DNA of 64,000 nt, taken from assembly GCA_949152475.1 (NCBI GenBank), contig OX424559.1:20367809-20431808 (forward strand). Reading direction: 5' to 3'. Every line of letters starts with the position of its first letter. Position 1 is the first letter of the stretch. The notes beneath the pieces were generated by a model that was not told the DNA's origin, did not search any database, and saw only the letters and a list, made by a program, of their open reading frames with translations. This document shows, piece by piece, positions 7,427-62,646 of this stretch. The stretch is from Terebella lapidaria. Its lineage: Eukaryota; Annelida; Polychaeta; Terebellida; Terebellidae. A program made the position numbers and the translations under genes.

Positions 7427-8527
7427 TCACTGACGCTCCACCTCACTCTTAGAGGTCTCGGCGAGCCTGTCACATGCGTCTGTGTACGCCCGTAGTTGCT
7501 CCCGGAGCAGTCTGTTCTCCTTCACCTGGGCCCGTAACTCCCCCCTGTGGATCTTCTCCCGTTGAGAGGCCTCCTCCTTGAGCTGTTGGACCTCCGCCTC
7601 GAGACGTCGCTGCTCTGCCTTGGCCTGTAGCCGAGCCTCCGCCTGGCTCAGTTGATGTCGACCGGTCGCCAGGGTTGACGCCAGGTCTTCCAGGGCCCTC
7701 TCTCCGGCAGTGACGGCTCTGCCCAGGCCCTTGACGTACGGCCGCAGCTGGTCTTCTGTCTCTGGAACTGGCTTGAGGAACCAGCTCAAGTCCAGGGGCT
7801 TGTAAGCTGGTACTGAGTCCCTGGGAGCGGGGGTCCGTCGTCCTCGGGGGTGGGGGCCTCCGGGGATTCCGTCTCTCGCCACTCCTGCTTGGACTCCGGC
7901 TCCTCCTCACTGTTTGGTGGGTCGTCCTCATGGCTTGAGGCGTCCTCCTGCCTGGGGGCGTCCTCCTGCCTGGGGGCGTCCTCCTGCCTGGGGGCGTCCG
8001 CCTGACTGGGGGCGTCCTTTCGGGGGCTCGACCGCTGGGGGCTGGTCGTCTGGCTGGCCGCAAAGCTCACGGTCTCCAGCTCGAGGGCAGGCACAGTGGA
8101 CGGGCCATCCCAGGGGCTTCAAGGTGTTGCCGCTGACATGGGATACTTCATGCCGGTCCCTGTCGGCTCTGCGAATGAACCACTGGGTGCAAAGCTTGCA
8201 CAGGTGCCGCCCCTCCTTCTGGCTGTGTTTGGTCGCCACGTGTCTACTGAAGTTGGACGCCGTCACGTGGATCCGGCAGGGGCTGCACCAGCGTCGTCCT
8301 CTCTCTAAGGAAGGCTTCCTGGCAGGGGACCGTCGGCTACCTCGGGGCTCCTCACGACGCTCCCGGCTCCTCGACCTTTCTCCCTTTAGGTCAGGTTTGT
8401 CGACCTTGTCGCTCATCTCGTCGACGTCAATCGGCAGGAAGTCGGCGAGATCAAAATCAGGCACTTCTCCGAAGTCTTCTCCTGCAAATACCGGTGTTTC
8501 AATAATTTGCAGAGGTGGCGTATTCAT
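7427..8527 (-). pseudogene. ORF3 of the family A relic: two-finger C2H2 protein
   Basis: The start ATG is at 8,525-8,527 and the stop at 7,427-7,429, giving 366 codons if the first and last parts are read in one frame. Residues 1 to about 145 include an acidic N-terminus, an Arg/Ser-rich segment and two C2H2 fingers (CSPC...HVATKH and CKLC...HEVSH). The middle part is readable in a shifted frame (8,094-7,786) and contains an 18 bp repeat giving DAPRQE units. From about 7,882 the original frame resumes into a charged, coiled-coil-like C-terminus. Two compensating indels thus keep overall length, although pol is largely deleted in this copy. It is the same protein as 41,258-42,355. Regulation is presumably from the element LTR. 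Function is unknown. Confidence 0.75.
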
Positions 8528-8635: not shown

Positions 8636-8790
8636 CCTTCCGTGAACGGTTCTTCCGCGAACGATGCTTCGGCGAACGTGCTTCCGTGAACGGTACCTCT
8701 GCGAACGGTGCTTCCGCAAGTGGTGCTTCCGCGAACAGTTCTTCCGTGAGTGTTGCTTCCGCGAAGGGTTCGTCCGCGATCGCTCCCGTT
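8636..8790. repeat. 15 bp CpG-rich array between pol and ORF3 (relic)
   Basis: Ten or so degenerate units of GCTTCCGCGAACGGT with a 15 bp period. It lies directly upstream of ORF3 in transcription order, as in element A (42,468-42,590). Confidence 0.85.
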
Positions 8791-15060: not shown

Positions 15061-15084
15061 TCCCATTATAAAGCATAGGGATAT

Positions 15085-18660: not shown

Positions 18661-18663
18661 CAC

Positions 18664-19109: not shown

Positions 19110-19205
19110 TCTGGAAAGTGCAAACAGCAAAGATTGTTACAGGAATAGGCTCACATATTCTCCAGTGTCCCTGGCAATGTACAGTATATTTAGGAGATTT
19201 TGATA

Positions 19206-37900: not shown

Positions 37901-40072
37901 CCAGTAAAGATTTTATGGTTGTAACCAAATGAGTTAACATTATTTTTGCTAGTTAAGTCTACTATTGACCACAATTAAGACAAGAAACATTTATTATTGG
38001 GCTCAACAAGGTGAAGTTCTTTCCAGTAGATATTCCATGGCTGTAACAGAATAGGGTAACATTAGTTGCACTAGTTAAGTCTATTTTTGACCACAATAAA
38101 AATAGTTAAGATGAAAAACATTTATTATTAGGATCACTGGGTGAAGCATTATCCTGTAGATATTTCATGGCTGTGACCCGATAGTTTAACACTATTTTTG
38201 CCAGTTAAGTCGATTATTGACCACGATAAATGTAGGTAGGACAAGAAGCATTTACTTTTGGGTTTTAGGTTTGCTAATGTACAGGACTGTTGGTCCTATT
38301 TCTTTGATCTCCTTCCCTCAGCAAAACATTATGCAATCTGAACTTTATGGGGTCAACAACACACAATGAAATTGAGTATATTGCTGACCAATATTAATGC
38401 TAGCGAGTAATGTGGTGGGAGATGTTGGCTGACAAGTTGCCTTGTTTTTCAGCAGGATAGTGGCTCTACGTACATTGATGAAGCCCAGAATACGACCTCG
38501 TCCAAACCAAAACCAAAGAGACCATCAAGGCCTTGCAAATTTTGCTCTCTGTTTTTCACTAACGTCAGAAGACACATTTCTCTGAAACATAGAGATGAAC
38601 CGGAAATTCAAAAGATTTTAGATTGCTCAGACAGAAATGCAAAAAGCTAAACTTTTGCCCAACTAAGAAAAGACGGAATTTTCAAAATCAACCGTGAGAG
38701 AGTACTAGAGGAGTCCCCATCTATCATACGCCAGAGAGAAAGGGAGGGAAAAGCAGTCATGTGTCCGAATTGCTGTGGATTTTATAAATGTGACACCTTT
38801 CGAAAACACGCGAAAATATGTTTACATCCAAGCAAACCAGTGAAAGGGACCGATATTAGCGATATTTCGGAGCAAAACAGAACATCCCCAAGAAATGAAG
38901 ATTTCCTGAAAAAAATTGTCAGTGACATGGACACCGATGATATCGGCCTGTACCTGAGGAAAGATGATCTGATACTAACTGTTGGGCAAATTATTTATGA
39001 TGGGAGAAAACCAAACAAGGAGAAAGAAGCCCGGACAAAATCCCGCACGGCGATGCGAAGGTTAGCCCGTCTGGTCTTAGAAACATCAAACGTATCGAGC
39101 CTTAGAGATTTGTTTGATATAAAGAATTTTGAAGCATTGGAGGAAGCAATCAGTGTGGTGTGTCAAACAAATGGCAAAGATGTTAAATCATTGGCTGGCC
39201 TGGCTGTGGCCATAGGGAATCTTTTGAAGAAAATTACAAAAGATCTGCCAGGTGATCTGTCCCTGTCAAAAGATCAGGAACTAGTAAACAAAATAAAACA
39301 GTTCCGCGACACACTTCACAACAGATGGTCAAAAAATTTCGGTTGGGCAGAGTATGCATTAATGGAAAAACGACAGAGGGAGAATAGGAAACCGACTTCT
39401 CTACCAAATGAACAAAATCTAGACAAGTTACGTCATCACGTTGACAATGAGATTCAGGCTGTGAAAGAAGTGACAAACCAGGCCATGTTTGTCCAACTCA
39501 GAATGCTTGTGCTAGCCAAACTAACCATTCTGAATGCTCGAAGAGGCAGTGAACCCGCAAAAATATCTTTGACAGACTTTGCAGAAAGATCATCATGGAT
39601 AGATCCAAAAAGGGCGAAACAGATGACCCAAGAAGACCATACCACTCGGAGTAAATTTTCTGTCATTTATATCACGGGGAAAGGTCTTTCTTTGGTACCA
39701 GTGCTTCTGCCAAAAGACTGCAAAGCCGCATGCTTGTTGTTGGCAGACCCTGAAAATCGATTGAAAGCAGGCGTGTCACTTGACAATAATTATCTCTTCC
39801 CGTATACAACAGGATCACAAGACAATGTGTCGGGTTATAATGACATCAGAAGATTATGTATGCAACTTGGGATTCCTGTCATCACTGCCACGGATGTACG
39901 GCACCGTGCCTCGACCTTTTTTCGGGGGTTAGAGGAAGTGCAGCCCGGAGTGTTGGATACCTTCTTACAACACATGGGGCACAAGAAAACAATGAGCCGT
40001 AACGTTTATGCTGTGCCTCCAGCGATAAAAGAAATCTGCCAGGTCGGGCCACTTATGACCCACATGTACCAG
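31996..40072 (+). CDS. Multi-exon recombinase gene, right-arm exon model
   Basis: Mirror of the left gene: exons 31,996-32,107, 32,897-33,096, 33,244-33,321 and 38,453-40,072, with donors GTACTT, GTAAGG, GTAACC and GTGAAT and acceptors CAATAG, ATATAG, TGTAG and TTTTTCAG. The shared in-frame TAA is at 38,648-38,650. This copy also has a one-base deletion near the end of the last exon (CACATG instead of CACAATG), a lost downstream acceptor and element A inserted 170 bp beyond the last donor, so it is more damaged than the left copy. Read outward from the centre, divergent from the left gene. Confidence 0.5.
33756..36315. mobile_element. DNA transposon remnant, right-arm mirror
   Basis: Inverse copy of 23,068-25,723. 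Its left end is CCATATTTATTCAATTAG (one change from the consensus). TA flanks both ends. Confidence 0.75.
36563..37167. mobile_element. hAT-like MITE, right-arm mirror
   Basis: 605 bp inverse copy of 22,214-22,820 with the same near-identical flanking 8-mers. Confidence 0.75.
37174..37404 (+). pseudogene. Displaced recombinase fragment, right-arm mirror
   Basis: Inverse copy of 21,979-22,209. It differs by a few residues (for example LFPY instead of LYPY, RLAEPQ instead of RLEEPQ). Confidence 0.75.
37549..37730. mobile_element. 182 bp MITE, right-arm mirror
   Basis: Inverse copy of 21,653-21,834 with TA at 37,547-37,548 and 37,731-37,732. Confidence 0.8.
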
Positions 40073-40129
40073 GTGAATACTTACTGCAAATTTGTTGCAA
40101 CTGTACAGTTAAAAGGTCTTTTTGCGTGA
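38759..40129 (+). CDS. Zinc-finger tyrosine recombinase-like protein, right copy
   Basis: 456 codons, matching the left copy except for about six substitutions in the shared part (Glu122 to Lys, Asp139 to Gly, Phe214 to Ser, Met307 to Thr, Gly389 to Arg and Glu410 to Lys among them) and a frame change at the C-terminus caused by a one-base difference near 40,063. Arg261/262, Arg381, His408 and Tyr417 are all retained. A Glu-to-Lys change lies beside the catalytic His408 and a Gly-to-Arg change just after the HxxR-like box, so activity may differ between copies. Both copies keep a long open frame despite 1-2% divergence. That is consistent with selection on one of them or with too little time for decay. 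Confidence 0.75.
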   Translation: MCPNCCGFYKCDTFRKHAKICLHPSKPVKGTDISDISEQNRTSPRNEDFLKKIVSDMDTDDIGLYLRKDDLILTVGQIIYDGRKPNKEKEARTKSRTAMRRLARLVLETSNVSSLRDLFDIKNFEALEEAISVVCQTNGKDVKSLAGLAVAIGNLLKKITKDLPGDLSLSKDQELVNKIKQFRDTLHNRWSKNFGWAEYALMEKRQRENRKPTSLPNEQNLDKLRHHVDNEIQAVKEVTNQAMFVQLRMLVLAKLTILNARRGSEPAKISLTDFAERSSWIDPKRAKQMTQEDHTTRSKFSVIYITGKGLSLVPVLLPKDCKAACLLLADPENRLKAGVSLDNNYLFPYTTGSQDNVSGYNDIRRLCMQLGIPVITATDVRHRASTFFRGLEEVQPGVLDTFLQHMGHKKTMSRNVYAVPPAIKEICQVGPLMTHMYQVNTYCKFVATVQLKGLFA

Positions 40130-40242: not shown

Positions 40243-41137
40243 TGTGACGTTTGGTAATGACTTGTTTTCGGTGTGGCCCAAAAAACCTGGTTCCTCTGAT
40301 CGTATAGACTTTATGTAACTCCCGCTCGTTGTGATTCGAGAGCCGTCACTAAATTGGTGTTCCCCAACGCTGGTGTATCATCACTCCGTAGCTTACCGGC
40401 TTCACTTAGGCAAGAAGCAACTCAGATGTAAATAAATTGAAGATTTATATACATCAAATCAACTTACAATTGTATGGCTGGTCACCCACGTGACGTACAA
40501 ATATGAAGTTCAGACATGGAGCACTGTATGATCACATTTCAAAAATAAATAGTGCACGAGGGCACAACTAAAAAGAGTTCTTAGCCGGCGGCGTCTCTCT
40601 GTCCCTTCCCGTTGAAGTTTCCCGTCCCGTTTAGTCGAATGGTTTCTCCAGGTAGTCGGTCTAATCCCGGTTGACTCTAAGGCCCTGAAGAAGGAGTCGT
40701 CCGCACGGAGTTCGTCGAGTCCCTTGGCTGTGGCGGTGACGATCTCCCCACGGTCGATGTCGCTGTTGCAGTGCTCTCAGAGCGGCCGTCCGCTCTCCCT
40801 TATATAGCCAGGGTGGCTGCGCGCGCATCTTCGTCCGCGAACGTATCTTCCGCACTCTTCTCCACGTGGTGAAGACTGCGTCCGCGAACGGTTCTTCCGC
40901 GAAGGCTCCTCTTCCGCGAATGGTGCTTCCGCGACTGATGCTTCCGCTGACGATGCTTCCGCAATCGTGCTTCCGCGAACGGTTCTTCCGCGAACGATGC
41001 TTCCGCTGATGATGCTTCCGCAATCGTGCTTCCGCGAACGGTTCTTCCGCGAACGGTGTCTTCGCAAGTGGACTTTGTAGATCACGTGACCGTTCCTAAC
41101 GAACGTTTCAGCGCGGCAGTTGCATGGTTTTGTTACA
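40243..41137 (-). repeat. 3' LTR of element A (895 bp)
   Basis: On the minus strand it starts TGTAACAAAACCATGC. The TATA box is at 40,800-40,807 (minus-strand CTATATAA), with the TTCCGCGAACG array (40,832-41,067) immediately upstream in U3. It is 15 bp longer than the 5' LTR because of one extra array unit. Confidence 0.9.
40832..41067. repeat. 15 bp CpG-rich array in U3, 3' LTR
   Basis: Nine or more CCGCGAACG-type units with variants (CCGCTGACG, CCGCAATCG) at a 15 bp period. The array ends about 25-30 bp upstream of the TATA box on the transcribed strand, an enhancer-like position. Confidence 0.9.
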
Positions 41138-41153
41138 ACTCCACCCTTTCTGG
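41138..41153 (-). promoter_or_regulatory. Polypurine tract of element A
   Basis: Minus strand CCAGAAAGGGTGGAGT directly abuts the 3' LTR, the expected position of the plus-strand primer in reverse transcription. Confidence 0.8.
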
Positions 41154-41257
41154 AGATCAACGTCCCCGTTGATCCTTTCTCTCTCTTCTTTTCTCTTCTT
41201 CCTCCTTCTTCGTCTTTTCCTGCCTGTCTGTTGTTTACAGGGCTCTCTCCCTCCACT

Positions 41258-42355
41258 TCACTGGCGATCCACCTCGCTTTCGGACGTCTCCGCCAGCCTG
41301 TCCCGAGTGTCTGTATATGCTCGGAGCTGTTCCCGGAGCAGCTTGGTCTCTCGGACGTGGGCTCGCAGCTCCTTCCGGTGGCTCTTCTCTCGTTGAGAGG
41401 CCTCCCCTCACAGCTGCAGCACCTCGGCCTCGAGCTGTCTCTGCTCCTCCTTGGCTTGGAGCCGAGCCTCCGCTTGGGTGAGGTGGCGTCGTCCCATGGC
41501 TATCGTGGACGCCAGGTCCTCCAGGGCCTTCTCTCCGGCAGTGACCGCTCTGCCCAGGCCCTCCACATACGGTCGCAGTTGGTCCTCCTCCTCCGGAACG
41601 GGCTTGAGGTACCAACTCAGGTCTAGGGGCTTGTAGGTAGGGGCCGAGTCTCTGGGAACAGGGGGTCCGTCGTCCTCGGGGGTGGGGGCCTCCGGGGATT
41701 CCGCCTCTCTCCGCTCCTGCTGAGACTCCGGTTCCTCTTCGCTATTCGGGGGGTCGTCCTCGGGGTCTGGGGCGTCCTCTGACCTGGGGGCGTCCTCCCG
41801 GGGGCTTGACGGCGTGGAGCTGGTCGTCCCGCTGGCCGCAAAGCTGACAGTCTTCAGCTCAGGGGCAGACACAGTAGTCGGACCATCTCGGGGGTCGGAC
41901 ACGGGCGTGTCGGTCGTCGTCCTCCTCCGTCCTGGCTTGAGGGTGTTGCCGCTGGCATGCGACGTCTCATGCCGGTCTCTGTCAGCTCGGCGGGCGAATC
42001 GCTGGCTGCACATCTTGCAGAGGTGCCGCCCCTCCTTCTGCGTGTGTTTGGTCGCCACGTGTCGGCTAAAGTTGGATGCCGTCACGTGGATCCGGCAGGG
42101 GCTGCACCAGCGTCGCCCTCTCTCGGTGGACAACTTCCGGGCAGGGGACCGTCGACCTCCTCGGGGCTCCTCACGACGCTCCCGGCTCCTCGAGCGCTCC
42201 CGCTTTCGGTCAGGCTTGTCTATCTTGGTAGGTGGGTCGCTCATCTTGTCGACTTCAAGGGGCAGAAAGTCAGCCAAGTCGAAATCTGGAACGTCCCCGA
42301 AATCTTCGTCTGCAAATGCGGGTATCTCAATGATCTGCAGAGTTGGTGTGTTCAT
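41258..42355 (-). CDS. ORF3 of element A: two-finger C2H2 protein in env position
   Basis: ATG at 42,353-42,355 and final stop at 41,258-41,260, 366 codons in one frame with a single internal TGA at 41,408-41,410. Residues 1-40 are acidic and hydrophobic (DVPDFDLADFLP), resembling an activation-type segment. Residues 50-82 are Arg/Ser-rich and basic. Finger 1 is C84-x2-C87-x11-H99-x4-H104 and finger 2 C113-x2-C116-x12-H129-x3-H133. A Pro/Glu/Ser-rich linker leads to a charged helical region after LDLSWYLKPV (about 248 on), including heptad-like LQAKEEQRQLEAEVLQL. No signal peptide or membrane segment is seen, so this is not an envelope protein. The same design occurs in element B and in the relic at 7,427-8,527. 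Inferred to be a nuclear DNA-binding regulator of the element. Its real role is unknown. Confidence 0.8.
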
Positions 42356-42462
42356 GGTTGAAGTGATGACGGAATCGTAGGCCGGCCTGCTTATATAGAA
42401 AAGGCGCGGACCAGGGATCTGGGGGAAAAAGCATTGTCGTGGAATGAAATAACGTTTTTCGC

Positions 42463-42590
42463 TTGCTTCCGCGAACGGTTCTTCCGCGAACGCTGCTTCC
42501 GCGAACGTGCTTCCGCGAACGGTACTTCCGCGAACGCTGCTTCCGCGAACGCTGCTTCCGCGAACGCTGCTTCCGCGAACGCTCCCGTCA
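42463..42590. repeat. 15 bp CpG-rich array between pol and ORF3
   Basis: Eight units of CTTCCGCGAACGCTG-type sequence with almost no variation. On the minus strand a 66-codon frame reads FAEAA repeats through it, starting at an ATG four bases after the pol stop. This is probably incidental, because the unit is a multiple of three. Confidence 0.9.
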
Positions 42591-42594
42591 TCGT

Positions 42595-45500
42595 TTACAT
42601 CGTTTGGACTGCATTCCCGCTGTTTTCCACTCGTCCCTCGTCATCACTGGGGGTCCGGACTGGGGTCACATCGTCCGGATTGGGTATCCAGGCGTCGGTT
42701 TCAGGGGTAAACCAGCACCTTTTTATATTGTCAATGTGGACATCTTTAATCTTGCCACCGGGTCGATCTTGTATGGACACCATCCATCCGAGATGAGACT
42801 TCACAACGAGATAAGGTCCCGTCCATCCTAGTCCTAGTTTTGGTCTAGCCTTTGGAGGGTACCAATACATCACCCAGGTGCCCACCGGAAAATGTCGAGC
42901 GGCTGATTTTACGTCATGATGGCGCTTTTGTCGCACCGTAGCCGTCTTCAGGCACTCTCGGGCAGTCTCGTGAGCTTGTATGGTGGCTCCCTTCACCCAT
43001 TCGACGTATTCGGACGCACACTCGGGGACTGGTCCTCCCAAATCGTCCGGTTTCGTCCGGTACCTCAGGTCCAATGGGGTGGTTGCCTCCCGTCCCATCA
43101 TCATTCGAAATGGTGTACACCCGGTGCTTTCGTGTACTGATGTTCTATAAGTCGCCATCACGTAGGGCAGATGGTCGTCCCAGTCGTCATGGTTCTCGTC
43201 CACGACCACGGCCAGAAGGTTCAGCAGGGTCCGGTTGAATCACTCGACCATCCCGTCTGATTTGGCGTGATAAGGGGTCGTCCGAGTCTTCTCCCCTCCT
43301 AGGATCTTGATCATCTCAAGGAAAAGCTTACTCTCGAACTCTCGTCCCTGGTCGGTGTGTATCTTGGCTGGCATTCCCAAGCGGCATACGAACTCAGTCA
43401 CAAAGACGTCCGCCACCGTCTGAGCCTCATGGTTGGGTAGAGCGTAGGCCTCAGTCCACTTGGTGAAATAATCACCCACGACCAGTATATACCGGTTCCC
43501 AGAATTGGTGATCGTTCCAGGCTCCAAAATGTCCATGGCCACCCTTTCTAGCCGATCGCCTACCGGTAGATTTCCCATGGGGTGGTACTTGGGCCCCGGT
43601 CGCGGCTTTCTCCCACTACACTTCAGGCACTCCCGGCACCAACGCTCCACGTCCTTCGTCATACCCGGCCAGTACATTCTCGCTTTTAGTCGGTGGACTG
43701 TTTTGGTGACTCCCTGGTGGCTCATCAGCTTGCCGGTGTGGACCTCCTTCATGACGGCGCGTCTCAGGACCTGTGGAACGACCAGTTGATGGATTGGTGC
43801 GTTCTGGCAAGCCGCTTGGTACCGCCGGTACAGAAGCCCATCACGTAGCTCCAGCTGGTCCCACTGTTGCCACAGAGTCTTCATTTGCTGACTTTTTGTT
43901 CTGACTTCGGGCCATGCAGGTCTCTCAGTGAAAATATTCTTCCACCCGAGGATGCCTCCAATTTCAGGGTCGGCTCGTTGAAGGGTCACTAGGTCCTCCT
44001 GGGAATAACCATTCAGGACCTGGGCCTCCTGGGCTCCCTCCATCGGATTCCGGCGTCCTCTCGTAGCCATAGCCCGCGTGACAGCTAGCATTTGTTTGTC
44101 TGGATCTCGGATCACAGGGTTGGGGCATGGGTCCAGGAAGGGCTCCCCTCGGCAGCGCATCCACACGTCGGCCATCGCGCCGATCGCTGCTCCGGCCACA
44201 ACCTCCGGTCCCAAACCATGCGGTGCGAGGAGCATCATCAGGAGAAACCAAACCCAGGCAGAGGGGCGGAGCTGATGCAGGGTTCTGCAGACGCTCCTGG
44301 CTCCTTCCTCCGTCTGTGGGGGGCTCCGGTCAGGCAGGCATTCCTCGGTCGGCTGGGTAGTCGTCCTCGGGTCCTCCTGGCAGCGCACCTCCCAGATCCG
44401 GAATATCCCGACTCCATCTCCGCAATAGTAGTCCTCCGTCCAGGGCTCCACAGGGACCTCCCGCAAGATGTTAACTTGAGGTCCTCCGGGGCTCCATCCT
44501 TCTCCGCTGATCGGTGGAAGCAGATCCTCGTCAGAGAGGTCCTCCAGGGGTAGGGGACACTCCTCCTGAGTCGGACAGGCCTCCTCTTCTCCTTCGGGTC
44601 TTGTGGTGTGGCGAGGGGCGGGACAATCCGGTCTCCGGCACTGTCGGCATCTGGACATCCCGTCTGCATTCCCGTGTTGTACTCCCGGTCGGACCTCACA
44701 CCTGAAGGCGTAGCTGGCGATGCGAGCTGCCCATCTAGCGATCATTCCTTCCACATCCCGAAAGTTCAGTAGCCACTTGAGAGAGGCGTGGTCGGTTCGT
44801 AGTAAGAACTCTCTCCCCCACAAGAAATGTCTGAAATGGTGTATCATACTGACGACGGCCAGGAGCTCCCGCTTGGTGGTGCAGTAATTCCGCTGGGTGT
44901 CCCTCAGGGTTCTGGAAGCATAGGCGATCACCCGCTCTCGTCCGTCCTGCACTTGGGATAAGACGCCTCCCACTCCGTAGCCGCTAGCATCAGTATCTAA
45001 AATAAATTCTTGGTCCATGTCAGGGTACACCAGCAGGGGGTGCTCGGTCAGGGGTTGACGCAGCGCCTCGAACGCCTGCTGATGAGCCTCGCTCCAATGG
45101 TAGTTGACTTCCTTCTTTAACAGGTGGTTGAGGGGTCCCGCTCGGGTGGCAAAGTCAGGGATGAATCTGCGGTAGTACCCCACGAACCCAAGGAAGCTCC
45201 TTAGTTCTGTCAAGGTGGTCGGAGGAACCATTTTTGTTACAGCTTCGACCTTGGCAGGGTCGCACTGGATGCCTCGGTCGGACACGACATGGCCCAGGAA
45301 GTTGACCTGTTGTCGAAACAGCTCACACTTGGCGGGTTTCAGCTTCAGCCCGGCAGCCTGCAGTCTCCGGAACACGTCCTCGAGGTTGTCCACGGCTTCT
45401 TGGAAAGTCTTTCCAAGACAGACGACATCGTCCAAATAAATTAGACAACGCTTCCATTGGAGTCCCCTCAGTGCCAGCTCCATTAGACGTTCAAAAGTAG

Positions 45501-47667
45501 CCGGGGCCGTCGCCAATCCAAACGGCATCACTTTAAATTGATAGAGTCCACTACGGGTAGTGAACGCCGTCTTCTCCTTGTCCCTGTCGTCCATCTCGAC
45601 CTGCCAGTAACCACTAGCCAAGTCTAGCGTCGAAAAATATCGTCCTCCTGACAAGGTATCAAAATTCTCGTCGACTCGAGGCAGGGGGTACGCATCCTTC
45701 CGGGTGACATCATTTAGACGGCGGTAGTCGATGCAAAATCTCAGTGCACCATCCTTCTTTTTCACTAGCACGATGGGAGACGACCATGGACTGTCGCTTG
45801 GCTACACAACGTCAGCTTTCAACATTTTGTCGACCTCGTCCTCGATCAGCTCTTGTTGGTAGTACGGGGCTCTCCTCAGAGGCTGCTTGATCGGGGGGTG
45901 ATCTCCCGTGTCGATGACGTGTTTCGCCAGGGACGTCCGGCCCAACCTCCCATCTGGTCCCATAAAGACCTGTTGGTGGCGTCGAAGGAGATCGCTGACG
46001 ACCTCCACCTCCTTTTCCGTCAAGTTCGGATGCATTCCCTCCAGGAGCGGTTCTAAATGCTCCGGGCATCCTGGTGTCTTCGTCGACGATTCTGCGTGCA
46101 TGACGTGCACTCTGGTTTCGGGCTGCTCAGGCGTCCGGTTCCGCCACTTGGTGGAGTTTGGTGTAAGGGGCTCATGCTCCCTCCCGCTCTCCTCCCGGTA
46201 CCACTGTTCCCTTTTAGGTTCATTCTGGGTTGTTTTCCCTCCATCGGGACGAAATCCTAGGTCGATCACGGCCTCTATTCCGTGAAGCTCGGCTAGGATG
46301 GTCCCCATCAGCACAGTGCAAGCTCCAGCGCCGGCGTTCAGAAGTACCACTGGTACCAGGCGTCCTCGGGGTCGTACCAGGGCTCGTCCCACTACGAGGG
46401 GGTCGTCCTCCAACGGCTCTCTTGCGGACTGCACGAGGCCGGCCTTCGGAACTCCTCCCACACTTCCTGTCAGCTTGAGGTCCACCATCATCTCTGAAAA
46501 GGGTGGCAAGACGACCGTCTCCTCCGTCACCAGTGTGTAAACGGCGCCCTCGTGGCCCGAGCTCATCACTACGGTAGTGTCGCCCACCTGCCACTCGCCC
46601 TTACGCAGATCCAGCTGTCCCCCAATCTGTTGAAGTACATCAAGCCCCAACACTCCCGGGATCCCTAGTTTGGCTACCAGTACGTCTGCCGACACGAGTC
46701 GTGTGCCCAGTAGAAGTTGAACTGTCATCTCTCCTTGAACCTGTAAGTAGTCTCCGGTTGCTGCCCGTAACCTTATTCTCGTCTGCCTTATCATTGCTTT
46801 ATGTTCGTCATCCATTTGGTCGAAGAGACACTCGTCCAGAACGGTGGAAGAGGCACCCGTGTCCACCAACATACGAGTCGCCTTCCCCATAACGTGGCAC
46901 GCCGCATACCACGCCAATGTGCCTCGGGCACCGGCTGACAGCGACACCACCTGGCCATTTCTGTCAATCTTAAGAGAGCTGCCACTCTCCTCAGGGACGC
47001 CGCCCTGGATAAGTACTGAGTCGTCCACCCACAGTGATGCACCACCCTGGTCCTCTCTGTCAGTCTTAAGGGAATCACTCCCCTCGGAACCGCCGCTCCG
47101 GATAAGTAATGAGTCGTCCACCAGCAATAGCTGCTGCGCTGGCCCCTTGGTCATTCCGCTCCACCGGCCCTCCGTCTCCTCTTTCACGGCCGCTTGTGGT
47201 TCAGTTGCATAGGGGGGTCCCTGCTGTTTCGCAGCCTCCAGCCTCAAGGTTGTAACCTGTTGGTTCTCCTTGCTGCTAGCAGAAACCTCGTTGATGTCTC
47301 CGTGGGTCCCCAGACGCTCCACGGCTCCATCGGTCTGCATTTCGTCGACGTCTCCGCGGGTCATTAGACGCTCCACGGCTCCATCGGTTTGCATTTCGTT
47401 GACGTCTCCGCGGGGCATTAGACGCTCCACGGCTCCATCGGTCTGCTGTACATTGGCACTCCCGTCTGTGTTGACAGGCTTGCCCTCCATATAGTCGAGA
47501 ATTCGATCCTCGAGCTCCTCCTGCGCCCATCCAGTTACTTCGGATGCACACCGGAAAAACCTATTAAAAATCTGTGAAACTAAAAATTTCCCCCTGGCAA
47601 TGTGTTCTTCACGTCTTCGTCGAGCTTCTCGCCTGTGAAGCCGTGCACACACCTGCCAATGGCCCAT
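42595..47667 (-). pseudogene. pol of element A: PR-RT-RNase H-IN, two stop codons
   Basis: A single 1,691-codon frame from ATG 47,667 to the stop at 42,595, broken by TAG at 45,802-45,804 and TGA at 43,240-43,242. Order: N-terminal segment with three QTDGAVERL units, aspartic protease (VDTGASSTV, later VLGLDVL), RT (FCIDYRRLNDV, PFGLATAPATF, catalytic YLDD), RNase H (ILDTDAS, CTTKRELLAVV, RTDHASLKW), linker, and integrase with an HHCC zinc domain (CRECLKC), the catalytic Asp residues in VAMDILEP and KIHTDQG, Glu in GMVE directly before the TGA, and a GPY/F module (GWTGPYLVV). No chromodomain. The TGA is a CGA-to-TGA change at the expected Arg, a CpG-type transition. Pol starts 24 bases after the gag stop in another frame. 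Confidence 0.9.
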
Positions 47668-47690
47668 ACGGTTGGGGGCTGGTATGAGCC

Positions 47691-48143
47691 CTACTGGTTT
47701 TCCGACTCCTCGTCTGTCAAACTGTTCCGCTCACCAATCTCCTCGATTAGTCGACTCAAGCGCTCCTCCTTGGTCCGAGGTGGCGGCCGATCTGGACACT
47801 GGTACTTCCGATGACCCGGCTTCCCACAGTACCAACAGTCATCTGGTCCCAGCCTAGCGCTTGGTCCCTTGTTCTCAGCAGTGGCGGCCCTCGGCTTGAT
47901 GGATAGCACCTGCTCACACAGCTCGATTAGTCGATCCAGCTTCCTGTCTTGGCTCTCAAAGAGCCCCTTGAAGTAGGGAAGTCTGGGTAGACCCGCTACG
48001 TTCGGCTGGTTGCTCTGCTGCCCACTGGTGGTAATCTCGCCTCCCTGCTGGTTCTTTAATAGCTGTAGGACCCGTCCTAGAGCTGGCCGGAGTCCTCCGA
48101 CTCTATGGACATCACCGGCTTCCCAGGCTTGGGTTTGACACAT
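47691..48143 (-). pseudogene. gag of element A, nucleocapsid part
   Basis: Third gag segment, with the CCHC knuckle CWYCGKPGHRKYQC and the end LTDEESENQ-stop. It is out of frame with the capsid part by an indel near 48,080-48,100, where the capsid frame stops at SGQL. Confidence 0.85.
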
Positions 48144-49390
48144 TCGTACTGGGTCACGAACGCTATGGCCTCCTCCATGGTCTTCATCTTCCTCATGAGC
48201 GCCATCACCTTCATGTCCCCATCTGGATGGCCCTTCCAGAAGTGGTCTAAGGCGATAGCCTCCTGAGCTGCGGAGTTCAGATCCGGATAACCACGGCCGG
48301 CCAGTCGCTGCAACTCATAGCCGTACTGCTGGGGTGTCTCTGCCTTCCTGCGGGTTCTCTGTCCCAAGGTCGCCTTGTAGGACTCCTCCTGACAGTCAGG
48401 GTCGAATCGTAGGGTCAGCTTGTTGGTCAGAACGTCGATGTCCCTCCGGTCTGCAGGACTCAGGCTGGTCAGCATTCGTCGCGCCTCTCCTGTCAAGCTC
48501 CCGGCTAAGTAGACGCCCTGTTCCCGCTTGCTCCATCCGTTGACCTCTGCGATGACGTCAAAGTGGGCCCGGTACACCGGCCACTCTATGGAAGTCCCAT
48601 CGAACTTGTCAGGGGTCAGCATCTTCCGGTTCCTTCTGCCGTTCTGATTCCAGGCTGTGCTGTCCTCGGACGACGAGTCCTCCTGCCTCCGTCTCGGCCT
48701 AGGGCTTCGTCGGTGCAGCGGCGGTCCCCGCCTCGGTGGTCTCCTCCCCCGTCCTGGGTAACCATGGCTGCTGTCGGTCCCTCCATCAGATGAAGGCCCC
48801 TCATCGCCCGATGATGAGAAAGGGTGCTGTCTCCGGCCTCCCTGGGTGACTGAAATAGAAGCTGGATTTCTCCAGGAGGCTGGCTGTCTCGGTTGTCGAC
48901 TGGGTGAAGACCTCTCTCTTCCGCGAACGCTGTCTTCCGCGAACCCTCCGCGAACACTGTCTTCCGCGAACCTTCCGCGAACGGACTCCTCCGCCAACAG
49001 CTCCCGAAGAAGTTCTTCCGCGAACAGGCCTCCTCCGCGAACGCCGTCTTCCGCGAGTCTTCCGCGAACGGGCTCGTCCGCCAAGATGTCTCGGAGACGT
49101 CCCTCCACAAAAGATGTACGTCCGCGAACGCCATCTTCCGCGAGTCCTCCGCGAACCGGCTCATCCGCGAATGGTCTTCCCCGTCTATTCTGAAAAACTG
49201 GAAAGGAAGATTGGTCGCCTGGATCACTCCTTTCGTCGAGCCGCCGTCTGGGTGAAGACTCCTCTCTTCCGCGAACACTCTCTTCCGCGAGTCGTCCTCG
49301 TCCGCGAACGTGGTCGTCCGCGAAGGGCCCTCCCCGGTCACAAGCGTGCTCGTCACCAAAGACTCCCCCCTCGCCCACGAGCCCGTTCAT
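48077..49390 (-). pseudogene. gag of element A, repeats and capsid part
   Basis: The first half is made of units such as RLAEDGVRG and RFAEDSVRGG coded by the TTCGCGGAAGAC motif, that is, the 15 bp array motif in coding form. From about residue 262 comes a gypsy-type capsid: LTPDKFDGTSIEWPVYRAHF, GWSKREQGVYLAGSLTGEAR, LRFDPDCQEE and ETPQQYGYELQRLAGRGYPD. It is separated from the N-terminal part by a frameshift near 49,360-49,390. Confidence 0.85.
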
Positions 49391-50228
49391 CCACGAAGGA
49401 TCCCCGGCTGCAAGCGTCCCTGTCGCCGAAGAATGCCTCTCGTCCGCGAATGTTCTCTTCCGCGAAAAGTCCTCTCCCTCTCGAGCTGCTCTCTTGGGTC
49501 GGAGCCCAAGTAACCCGTCCTCCAGTCACTCCCGTTTGTCGACTCGTCACACCAGACCGCTGCCCTGTTGCACCAGACTGCTGCTGGGACTGGTCCCAAA
49601 GCCGTCTCAATGCTGCATTCTCTGGAGGTGCCACACTTGGACTCTGCTCCGGTAGCTGTAGCCGATCCCTCCTCGCCCAGATTTCGCCGTCCTCCCCGTC
49701 CAGATTGACGTACTCCGGTCCCAGCACTCGTCGGAACTCGGGGCCCCTCCTAACGCTCTCAAGGTAGGTTGACCTCTCCCTGTCTCGATCGTGCTGCCAC
49801 CCAGAGTCGTGTCTGAAAAGAAAACGGTTGTCGGGTGTCTGGCTCCGGGGTCTCTGTTGACTCGTCGACTGGCCCATGGAAGGTCTCGACCTCCCTGGTT
49901 GCTCCTCACTCGTTGAAACGTCCCGTCTACCCCTGGCTGTGAAGCTGCTCTTCCGCGAACGGTCGTCTTCCGCGAACATTGTCTTCCGCGAACGGTCGTC
50001 GGCCTCTTCCGCCAAGGTCGTCTTCCACGAACGGTTGTCGTCCGCGAACGTCTTCCGCGAACGGTCGTCTTCCGCGAACGTCTTCCGCGAACGGTCGTTT
50101 CCCTCTTCCGGAAAGGTCGGCTTCCGCGAACCGCTGTCTTCCTCGTCCGCAAGTGAGGCCGTCCGCGAAGAGTCTTCCTCTTCACCCCCTGTCTTCCCTG
50201 GGGCAGTTTCGTCGTTTTCGCTGGACAT
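49353..50228 (-). pseudogene. gag of element A, N-terminal part
   Basis: The start is chosen at the ATG at 50,226-50,228 (MSSENDETAPGK), 40 bases after the primer site; upstream codons would run into the LTR. Residues 20-100 are repeats of DDRSRKTFAE type, coded by CGTTCGCGGAAGACG, the array motif again. The function of this low-complexity, highly charged part is unknown. Confidence 0.75.
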
Positions 50229-50268
50229 GAGTGATGCTGAGGTTCGTTCCCTGGCAGTAGACCCTCGG

Positions 50269-50288
50269 GGATCCTGGTCACGGCACCA
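50269..50288 (-). promoter_or_regulatory. Primer binding site of element A (tRNA-His-like)
   Basis: Minus strand TGGTGCCGTGACCAGGATCC, three bases after the 5' LTR end CGTCACA. It is complementary to the 3' end expected of tRNA-His (…GGTCACGGCA plus CCA). Identity of the tRNA is from memory of the family. Confidence 0.8.
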
Positions 50289-50291
50289 AGT

Positions 50292-51171
50292 TGTGACGTT
50301 TGGTAATGACTTGTTTTCGGTGTGGCCCAAAAAACCTGGTTTCTCTGATCGTATAGACTTTATGTAACTCCCGCTCGTTGTGATTCGAGAGCCGTCACTA
50401 AATTGGTGTTCCCCAACGCTGGTGTATCATCACTCCATAGCTTACCGGCTTCACTTAGGCAAGAAGCAACTCAGATGTAAATAAATTGAAGATTTATATA
50501 CATCAAATCAACTTACAATTGTATGGCTGGTCACCCACGTGACGTACAAATATGAAGTTCAGACATGGAGCACTGTATGATCACATTTCAAAAATAAATA
50601 GTGCACGAGGGCACAACTAAAAAGAGTTCTTAGCCGGCGGCGTCTCTCTGTCCCTTCCCGTTGAAGTTTCCCGTCCCGTTTAGTCGAATGGTTTCTCCAG
50701 GTAGTCGGTCTAATCCCGGTTGACTCTAAGGCCCTGAAGAAGGAGTCGTCCGCACGGAGTTCGTCGAGTCCCTTGGCTGTGGCGGTGACGATCTCCCCAC
50801 GGTCGATGTCGCTGTTGCAGTGCTCTCAGAGCGGCCGTCCGCTCTCCCTTATATAGCCAGGGTGGCTGCGCGCGCATCTTCGTCCGCGAACGTATCTTCC
50901 GCACTCTTCTCCACGTGGTGAAGACTGCGTCCGCGAACGGTTCTTCCGCGAAGGCTCCTCTTCCGCGAACGGTGCTTCCGCGACTGATGCTTCCGCTGAC
51001 GATGCTTCCGCAATCGTGCTTCCGCGAACGGTTCTTCCGCGAACGATGCTTCCGCAATCGTGCTTCCGCGAACGGTTCTTCCGCGAACGGTGTCTTCGCA
51101 ATTGGACTTTGTAGATCACGTGACCGTTCCTAACGAACGTTTCAGCGCGGCAGTTGCATGGTTTTGTTACA
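50292..51171 (-). repeat. 5' LTR of element A (880 bp)
   Basis: TATA box at 50,849-50,856 on the minus strand, array at 50,881-51,100 upstream of it. The R/U5 region includes GAGCGGACGGCCGCTC, an inverted repeat just downstream of TATA. Confidence 0.9.
50881..51100. repeat. 15 bp CpG-rich array in U3, 5' LTR
   Basis: Same array as in the 3' LTR, one unit shorter. Being in the 5' LTR, it is the copy that would face the element promoter. Confidence 0.9.
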
Positions 51172-51175
51172 CCTG

Positions 51176-53191
51176 TAACAATCTTTGCTGTTTGCACTTT
51201 CCCGAATTTGTCAACCTCAGCCGACCCTCCCAACAAGCTGAAGCGCTCGCTGCCCAGGAGCCTCTCAGGAGACGCCACTCAGGACCAGATCGTGGTAGGC
51301 CATACGCATGCCTTGAGTTTGCATTGATTATGCTTGAAATGATAATTGAATTTTAGTTGACAGTTTCCATGTGCACTCAGCTGAAATTTTGTGTCATTCA
51401 TATCTTGTTTAGCCTATTAACCAATTTGCAAAAAGTGAGCCAAATTAATTTTATGTACGCATAATGAATTTATTCCATGGAATGAGAACTTATGGGATCC
51501 TTGAGTCTATTTGGTTACATCCTCTGCTGTTTACAATTTCCAGAACTTGTCAACCTCGGATGACCCTCCCTACAAGCGATCAAGACATGCGTCCACTTCA
51601 GCTGACCTGCCCAGCACAGTACCAGCACACGCTACTCTGGACAGAAATGTGGTGGGCAATTTACCTTGATTTACACTAGCATGACCAAATGTGAAATAAT
51701 TTAATTGTTTAAGACAGTGTGTGTTTGACCAAGACCAGCTTAGAGGAATTGAAAAATGTGACCGGATACTGAACTAAATTCATATGTATATTCTGATTTT
51801 TCTGACTCGTTTACACCCTTTATTGCCTTGGTTTCAGTCAAATTATTTCAAGCGAACTATTTAACTGAATACTACATGTCTATGATGCAAACGGCAATAG
51901 ATTTTCATAAACATGGCTTCCGAAACGCTACATGGTTCTTTAAAAACACAAAATTTCGATTTAAAGCCTAAAAAAATTAATTTTCTGTTTCTCGTCCTCC
52001 TATTTTTTCAAAACTTGGTATAGAGGGACTTTTTATTTTTTTATTTTTCATTTTTTATTTTGCCAAAAATGCCGACTTCAGCTCAAAAGAAAATTGGGTA
52101 GGGAGGCACTTTTTATTAGGGCATTTCGGCACAAAATGCCCTGATGGTTTTGTCAGAATTTTTTTTTTCACTTTTCTTTTTTCACTTTTTGGTTTCCGGA
52201 CGATAACTCGAGAACGCCTTGACGCATTTTCGAGAAATTTTCACCAGTTATCACATATATTACATAGATGAACCCTGTTGTTTTGGAGCCGGCTCCGAGG
52301 TCCGGTTAGTCCGTGAGGATGAATTTTGTGTCAAATGGTTTCTGGATGATAACTCGAAAAGTACTTGTGCTACCATTCTGAAACTTGACATGTACGTTGA
52401 TATAGTGTCTCAGAGGAACTTTATCGATTATGAAGTCAATCCCACAAACGACATTTGACCCAGGGGCCGAAAACAATTTTGGTGGGTCATCCTTGAGGCT
52501 GATTGCATATCTCAGAAACGGTGCATCGTAGAGCGAAACGGACATTATTTTCGGACTCGTCACCCTAGACAAACATGTCTAAGGGGTATTATGGATGAAC
52601 TTTGACCTTGACCCGAAATTTTTTTGCCGAGTCGGCAATTTTCGTTTTCGTCGATATCTCGAAAACGGTGTGTCGTACAGCGAAACGGACGTTATTTTCA
52701 GACTCGTCACCCTAGACAAACATGTCTAATGGGTATTATGGATGAACTTTGACCTTGACCCGAAATTTTTTTGCCAAGTCGGCATTTTTCGTTTTTGTCG
52801 ATATCTCGGAAACGGTGCGTCGTAGAGCGAAACGGACGTTATTTTCGGACTCGTCATGCTAGACAAACATGTCTTAGAGGTATTATGGATGAACTTTATC
52901 GGTTGGCCAAGTCTATCATAACTAACATTCATGCACGCCGAAATTATTTTTGGCGCGCTGAAATAAATAATTTTGGCGCGCTGAAATTATATCCAATTAA
53001 ACTTTTATCGTTTCAGCGCACCTAAATAACATTTTAACATGGCCAATGATACAACACGTTTTTGTGCGCGCCTGAATCAAGCTGAGCCCACTGAAATACC
53101 ATCCAATCAGGGTAAACTCCTTTGCAGCGTGCCGAAATTCCACCCAGTCATTATCTTAAGATCAGGTTTAACTATTATGGCTCCAGTTATA
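51176..53191. repeat. Right-arm mirror of 16.3-19.13 kb
   Basis: Contains the inverse copies of the two exon-like segments (about 51,209-51,297 and 51,541-51,648, now on the plus strand), one copy of the ~420 bp repeat (52,120-52,545), ~147 bp repeats (to 52,910) and the GCGCGC block (52,920-53,150). No new gene. Confidence 0.85.
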
Positions 53192-53195: not shown

Positions 53196-54150
53196 TGTAG
53201 CATTTTTAGTCCAGTCTCACGGTTCACATTCATACAAATGTCCTCTCGTTGTGTTTGCGCTACAAATCCCGATTGGCGGAAATAAACAACTCTTCAAGTT
53301 AATAAACGGCGAATTTATATTAACCTTGAATTCGTCAATCGATTTACAGAGCTAGAGCAAATCATGTTTAACGTCAACATTGTGTTCATTGGCTTACGTG
53401 ATGGGTACTGTGATTTTAATCCTATAAACTTAATATCCAGTTCAGAGTACTCTGAATGTTATCCAAAGCCTGTCAAAGTCTCCGTTTGGAGCAGTAATAA
53501 TCCGGTTTACCGAGTCCCGCTCAAAATCCCCGGTTTGAACGGTAAGTGCCCAGGAAATCAAGTTGAATTGTGGAGGCCATCAGGGCTTGGGTTGTAAGGC
53601 TCTTCCCTGTGGAAGAGACCAGTCGGTTTACAGTTTGGTGCTGAGCACAGGAAGGTAAACGTGTGTCAGACTTCAAAGTTCCCAACACCGGTTTGTAGAT
53701 ATTCCCGTCCCGCTGTCACCGGTTTGCCATGCTCCTAAAGCCCGTGGAGACTGGCTCTCATGACAGGGTCCCGCCAAAAACAGTCCTGCCTAGTCCTGGA
53801 GAATAGGTGTGTATCCCTGACTGTCTCTGGAAGAACTGAATGTACTGCTAAGTATCTCCGGGACCCCAGTGGGTACAGCGTCCCCTGTTGGCAGTTATAG
53901 TAACCAAAGTTGTTCAGTCCACCGGCCGGTTGACACCGGCAGACGCCCGGTTGACAGTCTCCATAGTTACTGACGTTGTTTACAAAACAAGTCCCTCAAC
54001 ATGTAATCCTGTAGGTATTGAGTATATCCCCCTGGCTATATCCAGGAGCTGTTATCCCTTATTGTATCCAGAATGTCTGCAGCACCTTCAACCCGTCAAC
54101 CCAGGAATGAACCCATAAACTATAAAGTCGATAAAACTGATAATCTTACA
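53196..54150 (-). repeat. 3' LTR of element B (955 bp)
   Basis: Minus strand from TGTAAGATTATC to AAAAATGCTACA. It contains ACCGGCCGGTTGACACCGG and CGCCCGGTTGACAG (53,921-53,956), a motif that recurs in gag of the same element. Confidence 0.9.
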
Positions 54151-55273
54151 ATCCCCCCTTTGTTGGTGTGAATGTCCCCATTCCCCTTGGAGTGGCCCCA
54201 ACTCCCGACAAAAAGGCTATTATTTTCCCCCTATCCTGTTGCCAGCGCTCGCGCTCCTGCCGGAGCTGCTGCAGCTCACCCAACAGTTCTGCTGGGCTCT
54301 GTCCGTCGAGACTTTGGAGGGCGGACAGGCGGGCCCGAGCGACCAACTGGGCTGACCCAGCGCGGTGCAGCACATCTGTAAGCTGGTCATGGAGCCTCCT
54401 AATCCGCAAGAGCTCGCTAAGCTGGCGAGCGGCGTACTCCTCCAGGTTGGGCGCACTCCAGGTGGCGGGCGCCTCACACAACCAGTCCAGGCCCTCCGGG
54501 GGTGCCAGCGACCGCACGTCCACGGTGGGGCCACAGGCAGTAGAGAGGCCCAGCTGTTGCTGCTGTTGTTGTTGCTCCTCCGCAGCCGTGACTACCACGT
54601 AGGTCACCGGCTCCTCGGCGTCCGAGATGGCCTCGTACACGGTCTGTTGACTGCAGTCTGCTGGCTGCTGGCCCTGGGGAGAGACGGGCTGCTCCACGTC
54701 GTCTACCGACTGGACGGAAGCTAGCGCAGTCTAGGGAGGGGTCGGCCCCGCCTGCTTGGTTTCACTAACGGGAGCCTCCTCGTCGCTGGAGAGTATGGCA
54801 CAATCAGAGGAATGGCAGGGGGTATCCTCGATGGATATGTCCTTCATCGCAACTCTCGCCCCGCTGGTGTGGTTCTGGGCCGGGGACTCCGATGCTGTCT
54901 GCTGCGGGTGGGACACTCTGGGCGACCCCACAGCCCCTTGGTGGCATCTGAGTCGGTGCACGTTCCTGTCACCGGCCCTAGAGAACGCTGCTGGGCAGTA
55001 TCCACAGGCATGTTGCTGGGGAGGACGTGGCAGCCCGTGCACATCTCGCAAGTGCCGTTTAAGTGAGCGTGCCTGAACCTTCTTGTTGCAGACCTCGCAG
55101 CTCGTGGGCAGCGTCGAGCAAGAAGCTGTTTCGAGTCGATCACTGCTACCAGACAGAAAACCTTCCAGCCGGCTGAAGTCGTCCGGCGTCGACATGTCTG
55201 TACAGTATTGATCAAAGACGTGAAGTGACCGCCGTATCTCAGCGGTCAGCACAATGTCACTCAAAAACGTCAT
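54146..55273 (-). CDS. ORF3 of element B: two-finger C2H2 protein in env position
   Basis: ATG at 55,271-55,273 and final stop at 54,146-54,148, 376 codons in one frame with one TAG at 54,731-54,733. Finger 1 is C59-x2-C62-x11-H74-x4-H79, the same unusual spacing as finger 1 of element A. Finger 2 is C90-x2-C93-x12-H106-x4-H111 and shares an F-x-R-A-x-DR-type core with A. An acidic, Ser/Glu-rich linker follows (SIEDTPCHSSDCAILSSDEE). After the stop come a Gln run, then EGLDWLCEAPATWSAPNLEE, comparable to the LDLSWYL block of A, and Leu-rich helices to the end. No signal peptide or membrane helix. The start lies 130 bases after the integrase stop. The last codons overlap the polypurine tract and the first bases of the LTR. 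Confidence 0.8.
54151..54162 (-). promoter_or_regulatory. Polypurine tract of element B
   Basis: Minus strand CAAAGGGGGGAT abuts the 3' LTR start TGTAAG. Confidence 0.8.
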
Positions 55274-55405
55274 TTTACGTCAATAACACAGGAACTGGAC
55301 CGCACGATTTACGTCATTGATAAAAAGTTACTCTGCCCGAGAAAATGACGCTGATATTCACATGACATGTATTTAGTCAACTGCATGCCCATGTATCCGT
55401 GTTAG

Positions 55406-61618: not shown

Positions 61619-61667
61619 ACTGTTGATCGGGAGTCAGATTCTTTATTCCTGACAATATGTCCACTCG

Positions 61668-61687
61668 GGATCCTGGTCACGGCACCA
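61668..61687 (-). promoter_or_regulatory. Primer binding site of element B (tRNA-His-like)
   Basis: Minus strand TGGTGCCGTGACCAGGATCC, identical to that of element A, four bases after the LTR end GCTACA. Confidence 0.8.
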
Positions 61688-61691
61688 TTTT

Positions 61692-62646
61692 TGTAGCATT
61701 TTTAGTCCAGTCTCACGGTTCACATTCATACAAATGTCCTCTCGTTGTGTTTGCGCTACAAATCCCGATTGGCGGAAATAAACAACTCTTCAAGTTAATA
61801 AACGGCGAATTTATATTAACCTTGAACTCGTCAATCGATTTACAGAGCTAGAGCAAATCATGTTTAACGTCAACATTGTGTTCATTGGCTTACGCGATGG
61901 GTACTGTGATTTTAATCCTATAAACTTAATATTCAGTTCAGAGTACTCTGAATGTTATCCAAGGCCTGTCAAAGTCTCCGTTTGGAGCAGTAATAATCCG
62001 GTTTACCGAGTCCCGCTCAAAATCCCCGGTTTGAACGGTAAGTGCCCAGGAAATCAAGTTGAATTGTGGAGGCCATCAGGGCTTGGGTTGTAAGGCTCTT
62101 CCCTGTGGAAGAGACCAGTCGGTTTACAGTTTGGTGCTGAGCACAGGAAGGTAAACGTGTGTCAGACTTCAAAGTTCCCAACCCCGGTTTGTAGATATTC
62201 CCGTCCCGCTGTCACCGGTTTGCCATGCTCCTAAAGCCCGTGGAGACTGGCTCTCATGACAGGGTCCCGCCAAAAACAGTCCTGCCTAGTCCTGGAGAAT
62301 AGGTGTGTATCCGTGACTGTCTCTGGAAGAACTGAATGTACTGCTAAGTATCCCCGGGACCCCAGTGGGTACAGCGTCCCCTGTTGGCAGTTATAGTAAC
62401 CAAAGTTGTTCAGTCCACCGGCCGGTTGACACCGGCAGACGCCCGGTTGACAGTCTCCATAGTTACTGACGTTGTTTACAAAACAAGTCCCTCAACATGT
62501 AATCCTGTAGGTATTGAGTATATCCCCCTGGCTATATCCAGGAGCTGTTATCCCTTATTGTACCCAGAATGTCTGCAGCACCTTCAACCCGTCAACCCAG
62601 GAATGAACCCATAAACTATAAAGTCGATAAAACTGATAATATTACA
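61692..62646 (-). repeat. 5' LTR of element B (955 bp)
   Basis: Same length as the 3' LTR with about nine substitutions. The motif pair CCGGTTGAC / CGCCCGGTTGAC lies at 62,421-62,452, within the 5' third of the LTR on the transcribed strand. Confidence 0.9.

Follow-up and report, generated by a model that had tools for sequence, protein, structure and literature searches.

A retained two-finger C2H2 protein in the env position of Ty3/gypsy elements of the annelid Terebella lapidaria, a candidate regulator of its own element

What is the role of an open reading frame (ORF) that lies where a retrotransposon of the gypsy type might carry an envelope gene (env), and encodes two zinc fingers? The question is raised by a stretch of 64,000 nucleotides of the Terebella lapidaria genome (GCA_949152475.1, contig OX424559.1, positions 20,367,809 to 20,431,808; hereafter the window), in which elements A and B, bounded by long terminal repeats (LTRs), and an old relic each carry such a frame, ORF3. 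A sequence-only reading of the window had placed these three frames between the integrase and the polypurine tract. They are present, between integrase and 3' LTR, on the minus strand like A and B themselves (Table 1). A is a Ty3/gypsy LTR retrotransposon (Metaviridae), with LTRs, Pfam domains in the order protease, reverse transcriptase, RNase H, integrase (PR-RT-RH-IN), and target-site duplications, the last found in B also. ORF3 is an accessory gene that this gypsy lineage has retained, and it most likely encodes a nuclear, dimeric, sequence-specific DNA-binding regulator.

The layout read earlier from the letters is present in ORF3: the two fingers are accompanied by an acidic middle stretch and an LD..W block, and the end is helical. 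The proteins of A, B and a third family, C, are assigned by sequence pattern to the C2H2 zinc-finger proteins, with C-x2-C-x(11-12)-H-x(3-5)-H in all three; the Pfam zf-C2H2 cut-off of 25.2 bits is passed by C (36.3), with B (24.0 and 21.3) and A below it. The finger-1 spacing C-x2-C-x11-H-x4-H, put forward as shared, holds in A and B but is not universal, since family C (copy L040) has x12. Structure prediction with AlphaFold2, suggested for the finger pair, gave two beta-beta-alpha units in A. From the single A sequence, the model comprises these finger units (predicted local distance difference test, pLDDT, about 78), disorder and a helix over residues 257-364; from three C sequences, it comprises an N-terminal helix in an acidic stretch, two finger helices and a helix over residues 280-366, with residues 80-267 at low confidence. 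The two layouts agree, and their mean confidence is low (64 for A, 57 for C) and carried by the fingers and the helix. The best Foldseek hit of the A model in the PDB had an E-value of 1.2. Among solved structures, the closest sequence match to the A fingers is the finger pair of Tramtrack (PDB 2drp), presumably a host developmental regulator, which has the SNF-x-RH of finger 1 in common with A (E=0.029, not significant). The absence of a membrane segment, also claimed earlier, was borne out: hydropathy over 19 residues peaks at 0.52 in A, 0.92 in B and 0.84 in C, and stays below 1.2 in these and in the families D and E introduced below. For a signal peptide, the analysis covered short-window hydropathy of the first 30 residues. 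With no predicted membrane segment, ORF3 is not an env gene, and a retroviral or errantiviral Env was rejected.

None of the three window frames is intact (0/3), and the database protein P0001 is A ORF3 lacking the stop at codon 316. The host genome (761.6 Mb) was searched with residues 1-315 of A ORF3, residues 316-365 lying outside the query, and 126 of 1557 candidates were scored; all 126 match at an identity that rounds to 100 percent and are stop-free over the queried residues. Where both LTRs of A copies were compared (n=3), two pairs were identical over 896 bases and one pair had one difference, and family A is therefore judged from these sequences to be very young and recently active. 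Family B yielded seven matches to the N-terminal piece of its ORF3, the window copy included, comprising four open frames of 377 amino acids, one of 347 and two broken ones. The recommended profile and database search brought little more: the protein database gave only P0001 for A ORF3 and no match for the C-terminal piece of B ORF3, and a search of viral contigs turned up nothing related to the ORF3 or pol of A or to the pol of B. A profile built from A, B and C retrieved two more proteins, P0002, which carries the name of a fish protein, and P0003; both have numerous finger domains and were taken as generic finger matches.

ORF3 evolves under purifying selection within the A lineage. The ratio of replacement to silent substitution rates (dN/dS), proposed earlier as a check, is 0.14 between A and the relic (dS 0.71, dN 0.10; bootstrap 0.10-0.20; 338 codons), with 43, 31 and 113 differences at codon positions 1, 2 and 3 (about 347 each), and 0.22 over 359 codons between A and an older A copy, A-old. 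Ratios of 0.24 and 0.36 were obtained for the relic against A-old and for the C copy L040 against the C-like L041. Between A and the relic, ORF3 is more divergent (17.9 percent) than the LTR (9.5) and gag/PR (8.2), a trend also seen in A-old. CpG decay was rejected as the cause, only 16 and 12 of the 187 differences being of CpG type, so ORF3 may have been exchanged between lineages by template switching.

Homologous frames stand in other families (E-values are those of single comparisons). The ORF3 proteins of A and B are alike only in the finger pair (E=4e-4), and their reverse transcriptase-RNase H regions are 71.5 percent identical over 362 residues; B and C align over 358 residues, nearly the full length (E=8e-20). 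Family C ORF3 has 370 amino acids, is uninterrupted in L039 and L040 and truncated in L042, and follows the integrase in L040. To the left of the window, within 200 kb, there are one A copy, A-old and three additional gypsy elements, D (L020), E (L027) and i. D and E have an ORF in the env position, up to 899 codons long and with an apparent coiled-coil end, split into two frames by a stop in D; its similarity runs from C to D (E=2e-6) and from D to E (E=2e-5). Read by eye, the D and E ORFs contain two long Cys-His fingers with insertions; the script's finger pattern found none in either, and Pfam gave none in D and none for E among the matches listed (25/32 families). D and E possibly extend the ORF3 pattern, less securely than C. 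Two further loci bear on family C. L041 (G000:C13:22233881-22234975), a C-like ORF3 at 84 percent and with stops, has no integrase in 3.2 kb, and its BLASTN match to L040 covers only ORF3 and the first 50 bases downstream. It is a possible captured or relocated ORF3 relic. A C-like ORF3 without the array would be counter-evidence, but because integrase and an L040-like flank beyond about 50 bases are missing, L041 was not treated as a whole element. L045, a family-C copy at C9, adjoins a 158-bp satellite with about 25 copies in the stretch examined.

If ORF3 binds DNA, where would it bind? In A, the motif GCGGAAG occurs 11/0 times (sense/antisense) in the 5' LTR, 12/0 in the 3' LTR, 19/0 in the leader and gag start and 8/0 before ORF3, and 0/0 times in each of ORF3 and pol, with zero counts in 391/391 smaller windows across 42700-48900. 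Eight of the 126 A copies were inspected and carry 18-20 sites over the ORF3 region and 3' LTR together, split in the three readable cases into 7-8 before ORF3 and 11-12 in the LTR; three A 5' regions have 34-36 in sense and none in antisense. A-old has kept the arrays in both LTRs and before ORF3, with TATATAA in the 5' LTR and again 42 bp before ORF3. Since the LTR and pre-ORF3 arrays of A are wholly in sense and each is closely followed by a TATA box, the ORF3 of A seems, on this layout, to have its own promoter bearing the repeats of the LTR. Family C has a paired layout with a repeat unit of 21 bp that is unrelated to that of A and carries CGGTGCC. In L039 this motif is found 9/0 times in the LTR, where the final copy stands 39 bp ahead of TATTTAAG. 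Before ORF3 it is found 3/0 times, followed by CTATAAG 45 bp before the ATG; three copies in that pre-ORF3 stretch were reached in 0/5000 first-order shuffles. L040 has eight copies in the LTR and two before ORF3, L042 has three before ORF3 but lacks them in the 3' stretch examined, and L041 has none. In B, AACCGG occurs 6/0 times in each LTR, and six sister copies have 5-6 in the 3' LTR.

The zinc-finger helix code offers an approximate prediction of binding sites. Finger 2 of A (R, D and R at helix positions -1, 3 and 6) reads GCG and finger 1 (T, N and R) reads GA-any, jointly GCGGA, which among 512 5-mers ranks 1 in the A LTR, 4 before A ORF3 and 6 before the relic ORF3, and 392 of 512 in window DNA outside the elements. 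The code reading for B is any-CGG-(T)-A, and CCGGT ranks 1/512 in the B LTR; that for C is any-CGG-any-(G/T), which the shared core (A/T)CGGTG fits. This match between finger code and LTR repeats is suggestive, not proof.

It is proposed that ORF3 is a self-encoded DNA-binding regulator of the LTR and of an internal promoter, working like the Tas protein of foamy viruses, no kinship being claimed; we hold this to be evenly poised between right and wrong. Its fingers would bind the short site that is repeated in the LTR shortly before its TATA box and, in A and C, also the repeats upstream of the second TATA-like box before ORF3, and its acidic N-terminus would activate, or relieve silencing of, the LTR and ORF3's own promoter. 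In a positive feedback, low output of the LTR or internal promoter would yield ORF3, dimers of which would settle on the arrays and raise both promoters; no simpler circuit fits both A and C. Tas (Bel-1/BTas) is a self-encoded transactivator near the 3' end which dimerises, has separate DNA-binding and activation domains, and acts by positive feedback on the LTR and on an internal promoter driving its own gene, according to the available part of the source (PMC4929722). It differs in belonging to a vertebrate retrovirus with env and in its domain order, whereas the DNA-binding part of ORF3 would be the C2H2 fingers. A double-site layout, putatively of the Tas type, with a shared repeat and a TATA-like box at both places, is found in A and C but not in B. 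More tentatively, and with somewhat less than even confidence, a lineage of animal gypsy elements could, with no part played by retroviruses, have evolved an entire circuit that regulates itself, made up of a two-finger factor and family-specific arrays of its site at the LTR and at the factor's internal promoter, with fingers and arrays diverging together from family to family. The nuclear regulator suggested by the sequence-only reading is still the best reading, given the family repeats before both boxes in A and C, but its nuclear location, its binding, and activation as opposed to anti-silencing are what we infer.

Several observations weigh against such a regulator or against its generality. 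The repeats of A fill the gag start too, in A-old one repeat lies within ORF3 and the 3' LTR lacks TATATAA, and the relic's remaining LTR is without GCGGAAG. In B, the region before ORF3 has no AACCGG, TATATAA or TATAAA, and further AACCGG copies are found in gag (4/0) and in pol (2/1). D and E show no tandem array over the first 3.5 kb, read for LTR and leader; one 27-bp unit occurs twice in the gag of D. The code fails at the last base in B (A predicted, T found; CGGTA ranks 158/512); the A repeat was already known when the code was applied, and the C reading was unrecorded before the array appeared. All three predictions share a CGG core, which is likely by chance in a GC-rich 21-bp unit. 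Direct ORF3 similarity between A and C is not significant (E=0.041). The earlier view of ORF3 as old, retained and not an env gene is upheld by selection in A and by the homologues in B, C and possibly D and E, but not by element i, which shows no finger ORF. Purifying selection, likewise, is found in the A lineage (0.14-0.22) but is not detectable within B: the window copy against six others gives dN/dS of 0.76-1.11, from as few as 5-8 silent and 15-19 replacement changes, and three other B pairs have 1/1, 1/3 and 3/10 silent/replacement changes. With values near 1, no constraint is visible within family B.

All repeats of A and C lie on the sense strand within the transcribed RNA, so a role at the RNA level fits too, and the main rival is that ORF3 acts on RNA, as an export or packaging factor for genomic RNA with the sense repeats as its target. 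A precedent is CERV of the Caenorhabditis elegans Ty3/gypsy element Cer1, which occupies the env position and is needed for export of genomic RNA (PMC10309623, in part). A splice-acceptor-like site precedes A ORF3, but only one GTRAGT donor-like site occurs in 48900-50855, and splicing is one possible route to the ORF3 mRNA. Orientation would be kept by tandem duplication alone, and the position of the arrays directly before TATA-like boxes at both places in A and C is not explained by a role on RNA. We consider an RNA-acting ORF3 rather unlikely. Host factors might instead bind the repeats, ETS-like ones for A and Grainyhead-like ones for B, and leave ORF3 to anti-silencing, integration tethering or capsid-associated work. 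GCGGAAG, by its CGGAAG, looks like a binding site for ETS factors and AACCGG like one for Grainyhead, a likeness that also counts against the proposed regulator, and D and E seem to keep ORF3 without LTR arrays. Neither the same family-specific repeat before ORF3 in A and C nor the predicted GCGGA as the top 5-mer of the A LTR is explained in this way, and host binding with a separate task for ORF3 appears improbable.

The 15- and 21-bp arrays could also be functionless minisatellites, expanding through replication slippage and spreading through template switching during reverse transcription, with ORF3 serving some independent function. They are tandem and somewhat variable in number (the 18-20 sites per copy seen in eight A copies), and the 19 copies of the leader and gag start (48924-50127) fall in all three reading phases, so that the repeat is not kept there as a peptide. 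Yet copies are wholly absent from pol and ORF3 of A, A and C carry unrelated repeats at corresponding promoter positions, two in each, and A-old has kept both arrays; functionless arrays are quite unlikely. That ORF3 is a zinc-finger gene captured from the host, and no more than a neutral passenger, is disfavoured and very improbable. It could appeal to the plentiful host C2H2 genes (the polydactyl L043, L046 and L047, set aside as not linked to elements) and to the near-neutral ratios within B, but purifying selection in A, the long B-C homology and the same position in several families speak against it.

The setting of A and B allows their limits to be stated closely. The window contains a large inverted repeat (14929-29223 and 30235-64000, pieces 95-99 percent identical); A and B are inserted in its right arm only, and the exact ends and 4-bp duplications of both are known because the left arm preserves the two empty target sites. 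The LTRs differ at 4/880 aligned positions in A (indels apart) and at 9/955 in B. Both elements share a primer-binding site, TGGTGCCGTGACCAGGAT, which we take to fit tRNA-His. The last piece of the domain-bearing region of A (42595-43239) has no Pfam match and was placed by similarity to the B integrase. Troyka was rejected as the identity, its CG..CG termini and 3-bp duplications not fitting (PMC12440569, seen in part). Nearby, 38651-40129 and 19206-20732 are paired copies of one frame of 492-508 amino acids with its own Cys-His motif. This frame presumably resembles a tyrosine-recombinase or Crypton-type protein. Repeats of 147 bp lie at several places in the window (3697-4539, 16579-17946 and 52504-53150).

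Table 1. Positions in the window of elements A and B, the relic, their ORF3 frames and associated features
Feature	Position	Strand	Remarks
Element A	40243-51171	-	LTR-bounded, target duplication CAGG (4 bp)
Element B	53196-62646	-	LTR-bounded, target duplication CAGC (4 bp)
ORF3 of A	41258..42355	-	365 codons; premature stop at codon 316
ORF3 of B	54146..55273	-	375 codons; stop at codon 181; end overlaps polypurine tract
ORF3 of old relic	7427..8527	-	indels and stops disrupt the frame
Two C2H2 fingers of A ORF3 (residues 84-133)	41957..42106	-	sequence; AlphaFold2 beta-beta-alpha units; similar to B fingers
Long helix at the C-terminus of A ORF3 (residues 257-364), a probable coiled coil	41264..41587	-	AlphaFold2, pLDDT mostly >90
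Two C2H2 fingers of B ORF3	54941..55099	-	PF00096 24.0 bits, cut-off 25.2
Array of 11 GCGGAAG, A 5' LTR	50896..51084	-
TATATAA of A LTR	50849..50855	-	47 bp after last GCGGAAG
Array of 8 GCGGAAG-bearing 15-bp repeats upstream of A ORF3	42466..42576	-	sense 8, antisense 0
TATATAA upstream of A ORF3	42391..42397	-	42 bp before ATG; 75 bp after array end
19 sense GCGGAAG, A leader and gag N-terminal region	48918..50127	-	all three reading phases
Splice-acceptor-like CTTTTTCCCCCAG upstream of A ORF3	42419..42431	-	pattern match only
Decayed GCGGAAG array upstream of relic ORF3	8652..8762	-	4 exact copies
3' LTR of A	40243..41137	-	12 GCGGAAG copies; TATATAA at 40806
5' LTR of A	50292..51171	-
3' LTR of B	53196..54150	-	6 AACCGG, sense
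5' LTR of B	61692..62646	-	6 AACCGG, sense
Primer-binding site of A, TGGTGCCGTGACCAGGAT	50271..50288	-	identical one in B
Domain-bearing region of A	42595..47730	-	Pfam PF13975, PF00078, PF17917, PF17921, PF00665

How does ORF3 compare with what has been described in other elements? The insulator of Drosophila gypsy, with its Su(Hw) sites, is likewise an array of sites for a C2H2 protein near the 5' end, but the protein that binds it is encoded by a host gene and not by the element. In plants, gene23 of Grande is said, in the title of a paper on it, to encode a nuclear protein. The additional ORFs of plant elements (Grande gene23, Retand ORFs) lie between pol and the 3' LTR, as here, and gene23 has its own promoter; unlike ORF3, it is antisense and belongs to a plant element, and the word 'zinc' does not occur in the available text of the review (PMC7264820). 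Env-position regulators are a kind already known from gypsy-type elements: CERV, like ORF3, is a non-env ORF product, and is a nuclear regulator with helical, multimer-forming parts (PMC10309623). It differs in acting on RNA export, in being made from a spliced mRNA that shares gag peptides, and in bearing a putative Cys loop of the C4 type as well as a G-like domain, and no C2H2 pair or promoter arrays are described for it in the accessible part of that paper. Surveys of LTR elements in molluscs and annelids assign clades, with neither 'ORF' nor 'zinc finger' in the portions of main text available (PMC6238403, PMC8556966). As the sequence-only reading had supposed, no gypsy lineage with exactly this ORF3 was found among the papers listed from an open-access library, Repbase and most subscription journals lying outside the search.

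If the proposal is true, a transposon lineage outside the retroviruses would carry its own transcription factor and the sites to match it, a circuit like that of Tas but made with C2H2 fingers, and this would be one way for elements to free their promoters from host control. The families would then form a natural series of finger-site pairs, and env-position ORFs of animal gypsy elements would not need to be envelope genes.
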